64,000 nt of DNA, taken from the NCBI GenBank assembly GCA_034521495.1, contig JAXHMK010000010.1, positions 1-64,000 on the forward strand. The letters run 5' to 3'. This document shows, piece after piece, positions 53,445-59,471 of this stretch. This DNA is from Balneolaceae bacterium (lineage in GTDB: Bacteria > Bacteroidota > Rhodothermia > Balneolales > Balneolaceae). The number at the start of each line of letters is the position of its first letter. Position 1 is the first letter of the stretch. The position numbers and the translations under genes were made by a program. The notes under the pieces are model-generated. The model worked only from the letters and a program-made list of their open reading frames with translations. It had not been told where the DNA came from and did not search any database.

Positions 53445-53819
53445 CTATTCAGGATTTTGGGCATCACTGGATGTTGTATCTGGTTCTTCCTCTTCAGGTG
53501 CCAAAACAATATTCGCAACAGCAACTTGATCCTCTCTTACAGCAACACTCACGGAGTTATTCTGGAACTTATTCTTTCTGGCTTGTATGGAATAACTGCC
53601 AACCGGTATTTCATCCAGCCGAAAAGTTCCGTCATCTTCGGTGAGAATAGAATTGGTCGGTGGAGTTGTTGTTATATTAGCGTTATTGATGGGTAAATCT
53701 GTTTCACTGTCAATAACCGTTCCCTGAATACTGCCGAAAGTCTCATCTTCAATGGTGACTTTTTCGCAAGAAATTAGTGTAATAAAAATTGAGAGCAGGA
53801 ATAAAATTCTGTAGTTCAT
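53445..53819 (-). CDS. CarboxypepD_reg-like lipoprotein of the curli locus
   Basis: This 124-residue protein has a lipoprotein signal (FITLISCEK, Cys at about 19). A single carboxypeptidase-regulatory-like Ig domain follows: GSIQGTVIDSETDLPINNANI (about 30-50), GTFRLDEIPVGSYSIQARK (about 65-84) and VAVANIVLAPEE at the end. Its ATG overlaps the stop of the curlin-repeat hybrid gene by 4 bp. It may be an outer-membrane or periplasmic helper for curli subunits; that role is inferred from context only. Confidence 0.7.
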   Translation of the reverse strand: MNYRILFLLSIFITLISCEKVTIEDETFGSIQGTVIDSETDLPINNANITTTPPTNSILTEDDGTFRLDEIPVGSYSIQARKNKFQNNSVSVAVREDQVAVANIVLAPEEEEPDTTSSDAQNPE

Positions 53820-54301
53820 TGCTTTTTTTTAGTGATTCTCACTCCATCAGATGTTTGATGAATATATAATGATTTTTCAGGATCGTTAAAAATGAAATAA
53901 AATTCGTTAAAATTAAAGTTCTTTTTTGAAAGAGTATTGAGAGACGCTTTTATCGAGAAAGACTGAATCCAGGGGCCTGGATGGGTAATCAGTTGGTTAG
54001 ATTCACCAAGGAATTCTACATTTGCTTGCAGTGAATCGCTTCCTGACGTAATTTCTGTATGGTTATTTTCTCCGCTTGATTTAACTGTGACGTTCGTTTT
54101 GTTCTTTGAACCGCTCTGAGAAACAGATACGGAATTGCCGCTTCCTTGTTGTGTAACTGTAATTGTATTATTACTGGATTGAGTTTCTGTTGTGTCCGTA
54201 TCAGCTTCAGAAAACCCTGAATCAAATGTACCTATATTCACCAGCGACAAAACCAGGCAGAAAAAAATGTATGGTATCATTTTGTAAAACAGCGCAACCA
54301 T
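53816..54301 (-). CDS. Hybrid protein with short curlin-like repeats and a unique C-terminal domain
   Basis: This protein of about 161 residues has a hydrophobic N-terminal signal (MIPYIFFCLVLSLVNIGTF). Curlin-type repeats span about 40-80 (NNTITVTQQGSGNSVSVSQS and onwards), with the S-x5-Q-like spacing of Gln and Asn. Residues about 95-161 form a compact non-repetitive domain (IQSFSIKASLNTLSKKNFNF, FNDPEKSLYIHQTSDGVRI). It may be a nucleator or chaperone-like curli component. The start is ATG 54301, or 54280 if the signal is shorter. It overlaps the next gene by 4 bp. Confidence 0.65.
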   Translation of the reverse strand: MVALFYKMIPYIFFCLVLSLVNIGTFDSGFSEADTDTTETQSSNNTITVTQQGSGNSVSVSQSGSKNKTNVTVKSSGENNHTEITSGSDSLQANVEFLGESNQLITHPGPWIQSFSIKASLNTLSKKNFNFNEFYFIFNDPEKSLYIHQTSDGVRITKKKQ

Positions 54302-54386
54302 CAAAAATTTCTATTTATTAAATATTGTGAGTAAAGTTTAGTAATGTTCGATATGTACAGGTGCACCAGTTCCGTTCTGTATCTAT

Positions 54387-55093
54387 CTAGAGAGGGTTTT
54401 CGGTAGGCACAAACTGTTTAACTGTAGCAATATTATTATTGTTTGTCTTGAAAAATTTCTGCACATGCGATAACCTGACATACTGTTAGAAGATGATACT
54501 CCCCTGAAATCCTGCAATATGGATGCGTAGTTTTCGTCGCCATACTGATGAATGATAGCTTCCAACTGCGAACCATACTGAACAATTTTTGCTTCATTTT
54601 CGTCGCCATCCTGATATATATAAGCAGTAGAGCCGTCATTAGATGAAGCATCGCAAGGCTCAAAGGGAGGAGGACATGGGTTGGCTACTCCCGGTGGGTT
54701 GAATGAAGAAGATTCACCGGAACCGTTTTCTTGTAAAATCGATGCTATATTGCTAAAACCGAGTTGGAATATTTGCGCCCAATGGCTGCCCGCCTGTAAT
54801 ATTGAGGCCATATTACTTGACTCGTACTGCAAAATCTCTGCATAAGAGTCAGATAATGAACCATCTGCACCGTTTTTACCCTGAAATGGAATCCCATTGG
54901 GCAGACCATCAAACCCGTTTCCAGGGAAATTACCGATATATGAACCATATGTAATATTACCGGGCTCTTGTTGTATGTAACCCTTATGAGATGTGCCAAC
55001 CTGTTCAATATGAGACTCGTTCGATTGGGCGAATGTCAAACCGGTTGTAAACGCAATGGTAAGGCAAATTAGAATTGACTTGTATGATTTCAT
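54387..55093 (-). pseudogene. Curlin-repeat subunit gene, frameshifted near its 3' end
   Basis: This gene has a signal peptide (MKSYKSILICLTIAFTTGLT, then FAQ). Curlin repeats follow: SHIEQVGTSHKGYIQQ, ASILQAGSHWAQIFQLGFSN, AYIYQDGDENEAKIVQYGSQ and ENYASILQ. The main frame then turns into non-repeat sequence and stops at 54383. A second frame picks up the theme as KTNNNNIATVKQFVPTENPL and stops at 54387-54389. The switch must lie between about 54440 and 54495. A one- or two-base change, or sequence error, would restore an intact curli fibre subunit. Confidence 0.7.
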
Positions 55094-55246
55094 GACGATC
55101 TTAAATTGGTTATCGTATCAGTGATTAAAAAGGTCTACACAGCTTTCATACTGTGCAGAACAAAATTTGAGTTAATTACTTTGCGTGATTGTAATTATTC
55201 CAAATTAAATTGCCTGAACAGCCAATGCTGTGCAGGTCTAAGATTA

Positions 55247-55691
55247 TTAATTCTGAGTAATTGTTGCTGAATTAAAAGATCCATCAACATTCACAAGAGC
55301 AGAATTTGAACCCATGGTTTGCGTAACGCTCACGCCGTTTTCATTACCGAAAATGTCAACTGTGGCAGTATTAAAACCTGAATTATTTCCTATTTGAGAA
55401 AGTGTTACACTATTAAGATCACCTTCGATGTCTACATATCCGAGAGCATCTTCTTGAGCAGCACCTACGGTGTTCTCATCCCCAATTATATCCAAAATTA
55501 ATTCATTTGGAATTTTTTGGGCTTCTGCTCTGAGTGAATAAAGACGGTTTAGATCACCAATCATAATCCAATTGCCCACCAAACGCCGTGGTAAAATCTC
55601 CAGTAAACTGCTTAACGGCTCCATTATGCTCCACGTTAGCCTGCTGGATGAAAATGTTATGCACAATTATTAGAAATAAAGTTTTTATCAT
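55247..55691 (-). pseudogene. Curlin-repeat protein gene, frameshifted in its 5' third
   Basis: From the ATG at 55691 the frame reads MIKTLFLIIVHNIFIQQANV, EHNGAVKQFTGDFTTAFGGQ and LDYDW, then stops at 55554. The next frame continues from about 55580 with GDLNRLYSLRAEAQ, IIGDENTVGAAQEDALGYVD, GDLNSVTLSQIGNNSGFNTA, TVDIFGNENGVSVTQ and a final SFNSATITQN. Curlin-type repeats occur on both sides of the break. The short signal also looks damaged, so more than one indel may be present. It lies between the other curlin genes on the same strand. Confidence 0.65.
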
Positions 55692-55825
55692 TTGAGTCTT
55701 GATTTTATATAACATTTATCGGTTACAGATCAGAGATTATAAGGTCTGATCAAAAATCACAAACATTCATAAGTGCGTTTTTTTTGCTCAGTTAACTTTA
55801 ATAAATCATTAACATCGTGATTTAA

Positions 55826-55872
55826 AAAGCCGGCCGAATCTTTCAAATTCATAAAATTGAAAGTCGACCGGC
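55826..55872 (-). terminator. Hairpin downstream of the intact curlin gene
   Basis: AAGCCGGCCGAATCTTTCAA pairs imperfectly with TTGAAAGTCGACCGGC. On the minus strand the hairpin follows the stop at 55888 and is followed by TTTTTAAATC, so it probably terminates the curlin transcript before the frameshifted paralogues. Confidence 0.65.
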
Positions 55873-55887
55873 AAATTCAATTATAGA

Positions 55888-56616
55888 TCAGTTTATTTGA
55901 TTTACCACAGCATCATTCTCATGACCAGTTTGTGCAATGTCTATCATATCACCACTACCACCGTTTTGGTAGGATAGCGCAGCGTTCCAATCACCTGTTT
56001 GGAGTATTGTTGAAGAACCATAACCTCTTTCTTGTCCAGCTTGAATTGTGTTGTTATCTCCATCTTGAGTGAAGTCCATTTCATACCGTAAGGATGAAAA
56101 ACCATCTGCTATTTGAAAAGCACGACCACCGAATCCATATGTTCCACCGCCTGGTACACCTATAATTTTGTTATCATCACCAATCTGTGTAGCATCAAAC
56201 TCATTCCAGTATTGTTGGTAAACATTTGCAAAGTTTTCTATTCCGTCTTGTAGTATGTTTGCTACGTTGTTTCCTGCGTCTACCTGCTCAACATGAGCTA
56301 CGTTATCATCTCCCCACTGTTCAATGGTTGTAGCATGGGCGCCTGTAACTCGAAAATCTTGCTTTACAGTTGCAAGATTGTTTACTCCTGAGCCCAGACC
56401 ACCTAAACCAAGTTGATCTATATCAGCAAAATGACCCTCACCTTCACTAAGTCCAACATCAGAAGTTTGTTCTACATTTGCCGTGTTAAGGTCACCAACC
56501 TGATCAATGAAAGCTTCATTGCCATCATCATTCTGATCGACTGTTGCATTATTCTGCCCAAAGGCCATTCCTGCCGTAAAGAGCAGCATTACGAGTAGTG
56601 TTGTTAGCTTTTTCAT
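55888..56616 (-). CDS. Curlin-repeat amyloid subunit (CsgA/CsgB-like), intact
   Basis: This 242-residue protein has a signal peptide (MKKLTTLLVMLLFTAGMAFG) and many curlin-type repeats. These include NNATVDQNDDGNEAFIDQVG, DLNTANVEQTSDVG, DNVAHVEQVDAGNNVANILQ, DNNTIQAGQERGYGSSTILQ and HENDAVVNQIN. Regular Gln/Asn spacing and alternating hydrophobic residues are the amyloid signature. It should be exported through CsgG and polymerise at the cell surface. It is the only uninterrupted major curlin in the window. A 250-bp structured leader separates it from csgG. Confidence 0.85.
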   Translation of the reverse strand: MKKLTTLLVMLLFTAGMAFGQNNATVDQNDDGNEAFIDQVGDLNTANVEQTSDVGLSEGEGHFADIDQLGLGGLGSGVNNLATVKQDFRVTGAHATTIEQWGDDNVAHVEQVDAGNNVANILQDGIENFANVYQQYWNEFDATQIGDDNKIIGVPGGGTYGFGGRAFQIADGFSSLRYEMDFTQDGDNNTIQAGQERGYGSSTILQTGDWNAALSYQNGGSGDMIDIAQTGHENDAVVNQIN

Positions 56617-56867: not shown

Positions 56868-58238
56868 TTAATAGAAATTTGGTTTTATTAAAAAACTTAA
56901 GTTCACGTTCCACTGCTGGTCGTTATACCTGCCCTCAGAAACTCCGTCAAGACCATCTTGTAATAAATACCTGTACTGAGCACTTACCCGTAGACCGAAG
57001 TTGTTATTGAATCTAAGATCCAGACCAGTTTCGAAACTTGCAGTTGGAAAAAATTGATCTTCCAGATAGTCATATTTTTTGTCGAAAGCTAAAATCCCTC
57101 CCCCTAAACTCATAAATGGTGAGAGATGGTAATTGGGTGTGGCATAGACATTTAATAATAGATCAACACTATTGAGAGGGCTTAAAAAAACTTCATTAAC
57201 CCCGATTTCACCTCTTTGAAAATTTCCTCTGATTGAGAAGTAATTATTCATGTTTTTCTCGACTTGAATCGCCAAACCTGCTCTTTTACTTGGAGATTTA
57301 TAGTTCCCAATATGGCTTCCTAAGAGCCCACCAACACCTACTGTAAATCCATCTCGTAACTCTTCCCGGGTATCAAAACCAAAGTAATCTCTTCTCAACC
57401 GTTCTTCTTGTTTTTTGCTATATTCGAAATTCTCTTTGTAGGCGAGAACCTCATCATCGTTTTCAGCACTCCATATACCTTCTTCAATGCCTTCCAGAAT
57501 CAGAAGTTTTACGGCTTCATCAATCGCCTCAGTGACAGCCATAACCGGAGGCTCATTGTATGTGTAACCAGCCTCAGCCTCAAGGAGTCTGTTGGTGTCG
57601 ATATATCGGAATGCACCGCCCTCTAATTGTTGAGATAGAACGGATTTCGTAGTATGCACTGTTTTTAAAACTCTTCCACTCTGTGTGGATACAGCCCGCA
57701 GATAGATCGTCACCTGATCCTTGCGAAACATATTTGAACCACCGGTAGCAAGATATCGCAACCCAGCCCCACCGGTGATCACATTTGTATCATAGCCAAT
57801 GACGCCGCCTTCAAGCATAACCCCCGCAAATAGCAAAGGAGGAAGGGGGTCAGGTCCTTCCGGGCCGGAATGCTGCTGCCGTATCGATTGAATAATCTGC
57901 CGTTCATTTAAAAGGTTGGAGATATTCTCACGCTCAATCGGAACGAACCAGCCGGACTCTTCCATAGATTTTATTAAGATAGACGTGGCACCTTGTGTAA
58001 CGGCTGTTGACCAGCTGGCTACCCGTTCACTCGGTTTATACTGGCCCGTTTGATCCCGGAACCGGTAAACTGCCGCCACAACTTTTTCCGATGGATCTGG
58101 CAGTGATCTGAGTGATTCGTTTGCTTTACTTAATGTGCCGGGAGTTGCTCTTTCGGTATGCATGGGTATCATTGTTCCGGCACAGGAAACGGTAATCAAT
58201 GAAAGTATAAATATTAATATGTGAGAGATTTTTTGCAT
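56868..58238 (-). CDS. csgG: CsgG curli secretion channel with extra C-terminal barrel-like domain
   Basis: This 456-residue lipoprotein has a lipobox TVSCAG (Cys at about 19). Residues about 45-260 are the CsgG domain: KVVAAVYRFRDQTGQYKPSE, VTQGATSILIKSMEESGWF, LLFAGVMLEGGVIGYDTNV and YLRAVSTQSGRVLKTV. E. coli CsgG ends at about 277 residues. Here a further 190 residues carry repeated amphipathic strands (GLAIQVEKNMNNYFSIRGNF, then YATPNYHLSPFMSLGGG) ending in NVNLSFLIKPNFY, which looks like an 8-strand outer-membrane barrel. It exports curlin across the outer membrane. The start lies 4 bp after csgF. Confidence 0.88.
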   Translation of the reverse strand: MQKISHILIFILSLITVSCAGTMIPMHTERATPGTLSKANESLRSLPDPSEKVVAAVYRFRDQTGQYKPSERVASWSTAVTQGATSILIKSMEESGWFVPIERENISNLLNERQIIQSIRQQHSGPEGPDPLPPLLFAGVMLEGGVIGYDTNVITGGAGLRYLATGGSNMFRKDQVTIYLRAVSTQSGRVLKTVHTTKSVLSQQLEGGAFRYIDTNRLLEAEAGYTYNEPPVMAVTEAIDEAVKLLILEGIEEGIWSAENDDEVLAYKENFEYSKKQEERLRRDYFGFDTREELRDGFTVGVGGLLGSHIGNYKSPSKRAGLAIQVEKNMNNYFSIRGNFQRGEIGVNEVFLSPLNSVDLLLNVYATPNYHLSPFMSLGGGILAFDKKYDYLEDQFFPTASFETGLDLRFNNNFGLRVSAQYRYLLQDGLDGVSEGRYNDQQWNVNLSFLIKPNFY

Positions 58239-58242
58239 TAAT

Positions 58243-58665
58243 CTAAAAATTCGGGATTGTTATGCTGGTTTCATCTCCGGTAAGGATATTGAATATTCGT
58301 AATTGAATTCCATCAAGTCCGGGAATGACCTCGATCACAAATTCTCCAAACTCAAACCTGGATTCCTGGATCTCTTCTCCCTCCCCGAATTGCCTGAGCA
58401 CTAAATCGCGGGTTAATTGTGATAAAACTTGCCGTTGTAGTGAGTTTTTAAAATCCTCAAGGGGATCTCTTTGGAATCTGTTAGAAGAAAAATCCTCCTC
58501 GAACAAATTTTGTGTATCAGCAGAACTTTTTAACCATGAATAGTTGCCCGGGTGACCACCAAATGCGGGATTCTTGGGTTCATAAACTAAATCCTGGGCA
58601 GAAGTCGAAGCAGCCAAAAGAAACAAAAATGAAATCAGAAAAAGTAAAAATTGAGATGCTTTCAT
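58243..58665 (-). CDS. csgF: Curli assembly factor CsgF
   Basis: This 140-residue protein has a signal peptide (FLLFLISFLFLLAASTSAQ). The mature start, DLVYEPKNPAFGGHPGNYSWLKSSA, is the CsgF hallmark (NPxFGG then N...L...A) that inserts into the CsgG pore. A C-terminal hydrophilic region follows, ending in a strand-rich ITIPNF. It lies 2 bp after csgE and 4 bp before csgG. It should anchor the curli nucleator at the channel exit. Confidence 0.9.
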   Translation of the reverse strand: MKASQFLLFLISFLFLLAASTSAQDLVYEPKNPAFGGHPGNYSWLKSSADTQNLFEEDFSSNRFQRDPLEDFKNSLQRQVLSQLTRDLVLRQFGEGEEIQESRFEFGEFVIEVIPGLDGIQLRIFNILTGDETSITIPNF

Positions 58666-58667
58666 GA

Positions 58668-59471
58668 TTAATAAATTTTGTACTGATGCTTATTTTCTTG
58701 CATATAATTGTAGGTGTATTGAACAGCATAGTTAGCAACTTGCTCAATTATCTCATACCGAGGTTGAAGTCTGTAACGAAATACTTGTTCATCATTCACT
58801 GACACAGAAACCAGTGACCCAAGTGAAGGTGTGGGTTGTTCCGATATAACAATAGTAAAATTGCTTGAATTTGGAGGCGCTTCCCATTTTTGATAAAAAA
58901 TATCATAGAAATCACGACCTATTTTTGATCGGGTCTCGTCGGTTACTAATCCATCTAACTCGATAAATATTTGTTGCTCAGCTTTTGCCTGAATTTCTTC
59001 TTGCTGTTCAGTGCGTTTTTCGTTGATTAGTGATTCAAAAGCGGTTCTGAATTTTTCAAGTTTGTTCTCTGAACTTGTATCGCTACTCTCTTCCTGCGAG
59101 ACTACTTCAAGCGAGTCATTAAATGAAGAAATATTCTCTATTTTTTCACAAAATGGATTATTCAGAACTTCAGAAACAGACCACCCCGATTCATTATAGA
59201 AATAAACTTTATGAGGAATTTTCAGAACAACTTCTTTATCAAGGGAAGTATTTTCTGAAAATATTTCAAGGTTTGAGGATTTAATGAGATCTATAAAACG
59301 AGAACTGCCAAAATAGCCTGAAATGCTTTCTAAAGTTTCGCCCTTGTCAGCTACATATTCTTGATAATTTTGACAAGCAGCCTGGTCGGTTTGTGCCGCA
59401 GCATTAGAATAGAAAAGAATGCTTCCAACAAACAACAGCCCAAATAATATGACTTTTAAGCTTAAGTACAT
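58668..59471 (-). CDS. csgE: CsgE curli chaperone fused to a LysM-like domain
   Basis: This 267-residue exported protein has a signal peptide (about 1-26). A LysM-like domain spans about 37-92 (YVADKGETLESISGYFG, then DKEVVLKIP), and a Glu/Ser-rich linker about 115-160. The CsgE domain covers about 165-262: DGLVTDETRSKIGRDFYDIF, FTIVISEQPTPSLGSLVSVS and VFRYRLQPRYEIIEQVA. E. coli CsgE is only about 129 residues and has no LysM. CsgE gates the CsgG pore, so LysM may tether it to peptidoglycan. It is the first gene of csgE-csgF-csgG. Confidence 0.85.
   Translation of the reverse strand: MYLSLKVILFGLLFVGSILFYSNAAAQTDQAACQNYQEYVADKGETLESISGYFGSSRFIDLIKSSNLEIFSENTSLDKEVVLKIPHKVYFYNESGWSVSEVLNNPFCEKIENISSFNDSLEVVSQEESSDTSSENKLEKFRTAFESLINEKRTEQQEEIQAKAEQQIFIELDGLVTDETRSKIGRDFYDIFYQKWEAPPNSSNFTIVISEQPTPSLGSLVSVSVNDEQVFRYRLQPRYEIIEQVANYAVQYTYNYMQENKHQYKIY

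Follow-up and report, generated by a model that had tools for sequence, protein, structure and literature searches.

A LysM domain fused to the curli chaperone CsgE in Balneolales and its possible role as a peptidoglycan tether for the secretion pore

Evaluating a 64,000-nucleotide stretch of DNA from a bacterium of the order Balneolales (hereafter the window), we found that the product of its csgE gene, the CsgE protein of a type VIII (curli) secretion system, carries a LysM domain fused to its N-terminus, and that this fusion is conserved within the order. The gene is a single uninterrupted ORF of 267 codons with an ATG start on the minus strand, and it is the only csgE copy in the whole source genome. 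An initial sequence-only reading, which named no strand, had described a 267-residue exported protein; the length stood, with the ORF lying exactly at the interval given, and export would depend on a putative signal peptide read from the sequence. The features on which our argument draws are the following.

58668-59471, minus strand: csgE gene, 267 aa, comprising signal peptide, LysM, linker, helix and CsgE (ORF, Pfam CsgE and AF2 model)
59394-59471, minus strand: putative Sec-type signal peptide, residues ~1-26 (sequence reading and AF2 helix 2-30)
59373-59375, minus strand: Cys33, first of a cysteine pair, just before the LysM (pair pattern across relatives)
59208-59366, minus strand: divergent LysM domain, residues 36-88 (relatives' profile, AF2 and VIA-align to the Kbp LysM)
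59148-59150, minus strand: Cys108 (motif NPFC), second of the pair, ~20 residues after the LysM (pair pattern across relatives)
59073-59207, minus strand: linker, residues 89-133, its second half acidic, with low predicted confidence at 117-131 (AF2 and composition)
58968-59072, minus strand: conserved helix, residues 134-168 (alignment and AF2)
58680-58958, minus strand: CsgE domain, residues 172-264 (Pfam PF10627 and 2NA4 fold match)
58243-58665, minus strand: csgF, 140 aa, directly downstream of csgE (Pfam PF10614, E 1.1e-36)
56868-58238, minus strand: csgG, 456 aa, with a CsgG domain (PF03783, E 5.7e-62) and a C-terminal outer-membrane beta-barrel-like domain at residues 294-448 (PF13505, E 1.3e-4)
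53816-56616, minus strand: curlin-repeat genes, at least three with PF07012 (E 4e-15, 1e-15 and 2e-7), presumed export substrates

The identity of the C-terminal domain, which the sequence-only reading had also called CsgE, is secured by several comparisons, with PF10627 matching residues 172-264 at E 3.1e-25 (88.9 bits against a curated cut-off of 25), phmmer matching the solved E. coli CsgE (2NA4) at E 4e-10, and VIA-align placing the fold on 2NA4 with Z 12.4 and rmsd 3.5 over 94 aligned residues at 31% identity. E. coli CsgE (PF10627; PDB 2NA4) thus shares this fold, and likewise an operon with csgF and csgG, and differs in having only a short disordered tail where the window protein has LysM, linker and helix. 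The E. coli residue R47, reported to be invariant across Gram-negative species and required (PMC6050966), aligns with Ser216 of the window protein (csgE codon 216, 58824-58826), while W48 aligns with Leu217 and F79 with Tyr248. Because the R47-equivalent position also varies in other Bacteroidota and R47 is no Pfam family criterion, we did not treat Ser216 as excluding CsgE membership. A pseudogene was considered and rejected, since the frame is open and CsgE is strongly constrained in relatives.

The window cluster runs csgE-csgF-csgG-curlins, with csgE at its head. Its CsgG is longer than that of E. coli, which has 277 aa and no C-terminal beta-barrel-like domain; all seven csgG genes examined (window, L074, L077-L079, L081, L086) encode proteins of 450-500 aa with such a domain, and the PF13505 match, below cut-off in the window, passes it in two relatives (best E 7e-10, L086). 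Among the curlin-repeat genes, the frames at 55247-55890 and 54383-55093 seem interrupted, with repeat-like or signal-like sequence resuming in another frame, which may reflect frameshift, sequencing error or decay.

Recognising the N-terminal domain as a LysM depended on its relatives. Searching the window protein alone, Pfam LysM (PF01476) gave no match even at E<=1, NCBIfam reported no LysM above cut-off, and Pfam also missed the domain within its own genome at E 0.1. By contrast, a LysM profile derived only from relatives, and so excluding the window protein, scored that protein at 24.5 bits on residues 27-110 (aligned 37-87), against a best of 14.0 bits among 20,000 shuffles of the same residues, a result that rejects likeness by chance. 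In the family alignment, 15 of 17 members have a Pfam LysM match at E<=1, the strongest at 1.7e-12, and two orthologues exceed the Pfam cut-off of 20.9 bits (L008, 27.6; L041, 31.4). Textbook motifs of the domain stand at this position in relatives whose overall identity is 29-43% (e.g., YTVQPGDKLHEIGAHYGNPLFWEAIYIANADQIGNPNLIFVGQTLRIP in L008). We named the window domain a divergent LysM because its own Pfam match is absent but orthologues pass.

The predicted structure agrees with this naming. AF2 returned a beta-alpha-alpha-beta arrangement (strand 36-41, helix 47-53, helix 57-66, strand 81-86) with pLDDT mostly 94-96, and VIA-align superposed residues ~31-91 on the Kbp LysM (Z 6.3/6.0) and on baseplate LysMs (range Z 5.6-6.3), modest scores (Z ~6) of the size that a domain of 50 residues would be expected to give. 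This structural line overlaps in part with that from the relatives' motifs, because the AF2 input alignment contained canonical LysMs that could lend their fold to the window sequence. Foldseek with the whole model listed no LysM among its best 50 matches, as the CsgE domain fills that list. The sequence-only reading had placed a LysM at about residues 37-92 and pointed to HHpred or AlphaFold as its check; profile, relatives and predicted fold all uphold that placement.

An acidic linker had also been proposed, and residues 105-140 do hold nine D/E against three K/R, the acidic stretch spanning ~109-133. Two further features had been missed by that reading. The first is the helix at residues 134-168 (consensus LxxFREAFxxLV), which stands directly before CsgE in nearly all aligned family members, with or without LysM, and which AF2 predicts at pLDDT ~84-87 across much of its length. 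The second is the pair C33/C108 around the LysM. Among 24 LysM-bearing short CsgEs, 13 have both cysteines, none the first only, two the second only and nine neither (Fisher p 4e-5, a statistic that ignores shared ancestry), and from this sequence pattern one may reasonably guess at a C33-C108 disulphide that would close the LysM region. A lipoprotein was rejected, there being no lipobox ahead of C33 (QAAC).

To place the fusion among relatives, CsgE proteins were gathered from the family, order, class and phylum, the survey being confined to the phylum, and each was scored for LysM. This revealed LysM in 30 of the 34 CsgEs of Balneolales and in none of the 39 from elsewhere in the phylum, the 30 including one (L006) counted by eye since an in-frame stop splits its frame. 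The N-terminal region is thus conserved in close homologues and the domain order recurs, a point that the sequence-only reading had proposed to check, and the four Balneolales CsgEs without LysM (L005, L018, L021, L096) mean that the domain is dispensable. Across five pairs of close species, dN/dS was 0.11-0.46 in the LysM against 0.07-0.12 in CsgE, and the linker gave 0.25-0.36 in the pairs that allowed an estimate. Purifying selection thus acts on the LysM among close species, with weaker constraint than on CsgE. With only 98 columns and 30 of 70 inner branches open, the CsgE-domain tree allows no more than a rough history of LysM gain and loss. Scanning genome contigs with the family alignment returned 17 loci, while the single window protein used as query returned no match.

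We propose, in line with the sequence-only reading and by analogy with other export machines, that the LysM tethers the CsgE cap, and hence the CsgG-CsgF pore, to peptidoglycan, a proposal whose chances we regard as evenly balanced. In E. coli, the CsgG pore is capped on its periplasmic side by nine CsgE subunits (PMC6957492), which bind curlin (PMC6957492; PMC6050966). From homology and operon context, the CsgE part of the window protein would likewise cap the periplasmic mouth of CsgG and hold curlin for export, with one LysM per subunit of the expected nonameric cap hanging into the periplasm. These LysMs would grip peptidoglycan through up to nine weak wall contacts, tethering the cap and with it the CsgG-CsgF pore, and the helix and acidic linker would act as a spacer between LysM and CsgE.

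Precedents for such a tether exist at other pores. In type IV pili, the peptidoglycan-binding domains of TsaP (LysM-like) and PilQ (AMIN) help to tether the secretin (PMC9239104); TsaP is a LysM-bearing periplasmic protein at an outer-membrane pore, as the window protein would be, but it is a separate protein on the secretin and no substrate chaperone, and its remaining parts are not CsgE. Intimin and the outer-membrane adhesin YeeJ likewise carry a LysM between signal peptide and outer-membrane export unit, although in cis with an autotransporter beta-barrel rather than on a chaperone, and peptidoglycan binding has been shown there, the YeeJ LysM binding in pull-downs and helping localisation at the surface (PMC5595812). 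Because peptidoglycan-binding domains tether other outer-membrane export pores and TsaP itself is among the PDB relatives of our LysM profile (E 2e-5), we take the wall tether as the best reading for the family, and as a weaker one for the window copy.

That weaker standing follows from the state of the window's own LysM. Relative to the consensus, the window LysM retains Y, G, L, I, FG, N and IP, and the first ligand loop (GDxL) is present as GETL, but NPxLIxPGQ is replaced by ENTSLDKEV, whereas most relatives keep both loops. Scored over its full length, it reaches 21.0 bits and L037 15.9, the two lowest-scoring short-type LysMs found, against 62-97 for other short-type relatives. The CsgE-domain tree joins the window protein to L003, which likewise has an altered loop, and to the LysM-less L005 (support 84-88 on a short alignment). 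We read the window LysM, from its model and motifs, as still folding but losing its ligand site; with the NPxLIxPGQ loop lost and a LysM-less member in its nearest clade, wall anchoring in this lineage has probably weakened and could be heading towards loss. Taken further, the domain would here be a folded remnant whose glycan binding is gone, leaving CsgE to act as an ordinary LysM-less chaperone. Loop loss in both window and sister L003, the absence of LysM from the third clade member and the low identity of the LysM to LysM-bearing relatives (21-30%, against 44-67% for CsgE) all lend themselves to this account, but the retained hydrophobic core, Cys pair and IP motif end and the confident predicted fold speak against it, and we consider it unlikely while giving it more weight than any other alternative.

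A different possibility concerns what LysMs of this kind bind. The closest single-domain PDB relative by sequence profile is the Kbp (YgaU) LysM (9e-14), which is also among the best by fold (Z 6.0-6.3), and Kbp is a potassium-binding protein with no secretion link; because it is the nearest relative, and because phage and pyocin baseplates use similar LysMs, such domains need not all bind peptidoglycan. The LysM could then be a protein-protein or dimerisation module that aids assembly or docking of the CsgE ring with no wall anchor, an idea in keeping with these nearest solved relatives, with a report that the intimin LysM dimerises too (PMC5595812), and with the adjacent helix, which could form a coiled coil. 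The full YTVxxGDxL...NPxLIxPGQxLxIP pattern, however, is kept in canonical relatives, Fodinibius roseus CsgE being an example, and is not obviously needed for a purely structural role, and we judge this module distinctly improbable compared with the wall tether.

Bacteroidota also offer a comparison within CsgE itself. In L060 (1078-1791), L064, L068-L070, L079, L082, L083 and L086, the N-terminal part of CsgE is an Ig-like domain similar to the amyloid inhibitors CsgC/CsgH; the genomes of L060, L064 and L068-L070 are probably flavobacterial, judging from sequence, and carriers also include Saprospiraceae. In L060, NCBIfam matches to CsgH (E 8e-7) and CsgC (E 1e-4) both fall below cut-offs. 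The domain is predicted to be seven-stranded, and VIA-align ranks E. coli CsgC first for it (Z 12.5, 94 of 95 residues, 17% identity), with CsgH reaching Z 10.7. By itself the fold would leave a CsgC identity undecided, because many unrelated Ig-like folds also score Z 10-12, but fold, sequence and pathway together make a CsgC/CsgH-like domain likely. This fusion, like that of the window, adds an N-terminal module in the same CsgE slot of the same operon type, the module being an Ig-like beta-sandwich of amyloid-inhibitor type there and a LysM here.

We know of no amyloid-inhibiting role for LysM, and the LysM fold is unrelated to CsgC. The CsgC/CsgH-like module on Bacteroidia CsgE probably binds curlin and substitutes for the absent CsgC; that the window's module does likewise is accordingly very improbable, even though the same slot is filled in another lineage and a 2012 curli survey describes Bacteroidetes curli systems as lacking csgC (PMC3521004). 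Least tenable of all, an artefact in which the N-terminal region is foreign to the protein (wrong start, fused frames) or resembles LysM by chance could appeal to Pfam alone being blind to LysM in the window sequence, but it is refuted by the shuffle test and by conservation across relatives, with one open frame running from signal peptide through CsgE and an identical part order in dozens of genomes.

Retaining the wall tether as our preferred reading for the family, we tentatively suggest, at somewhat less than even chances, that CsgE is a modular adaptor in Bacteroidota whose N-terminal slot holds a LysM wall anchor in Balneolales or a built-in CsgC/CsgH-like amyloid inhibitor in Bacteroidia, so coupling the pore cap to the wall or to substrate protection. 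The Bacteroidia fusion would put an amyloid inhibitor at the pore entrance and bears on the handover of curlin from inhibitor to export cap. Balneolales are marine and salt-loving bacteria, and a LysM on the curli pore cap suggests that the cap is tied to the wall. To our knowledge, no peptidoglycan anchor has been described for curli secretion, whereas other outer-membrane export machines have one; if our reading is true, the conserved LysM on the pore-capping chaperone is such an anchor. The parts are of known kinds and the LysM-CsgE fusion appears to be new: among open-licence full texts, none turned up in which CsgE and LysM occur together, an absence that is itself no proof of novelty, and the consulted passages of the 2012 survey mention no N-terminal CsgE domain (PMC3521004).

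Additional csgE forms and copies were also seen in the order. A second form of 455-519 aa, present in one family (f5; L048, L049, L050, L095, L097), combines a helical DUF4168-like region with LysM, linker and CsgE, adjoins csgF and csgG in L048-L050, and may be separate from the short form. One genome (G075) has three csgE copies, of which the one adjoining csgF-csgG is without LysM and the other two carry it. Loci L007 and L008 (genomes G063 and G075) hold extra LysM-CsgE genes beside curlin genes, without csgF or csgG in the stretch covered, and these are possibly substrate-specific CsgE copies.
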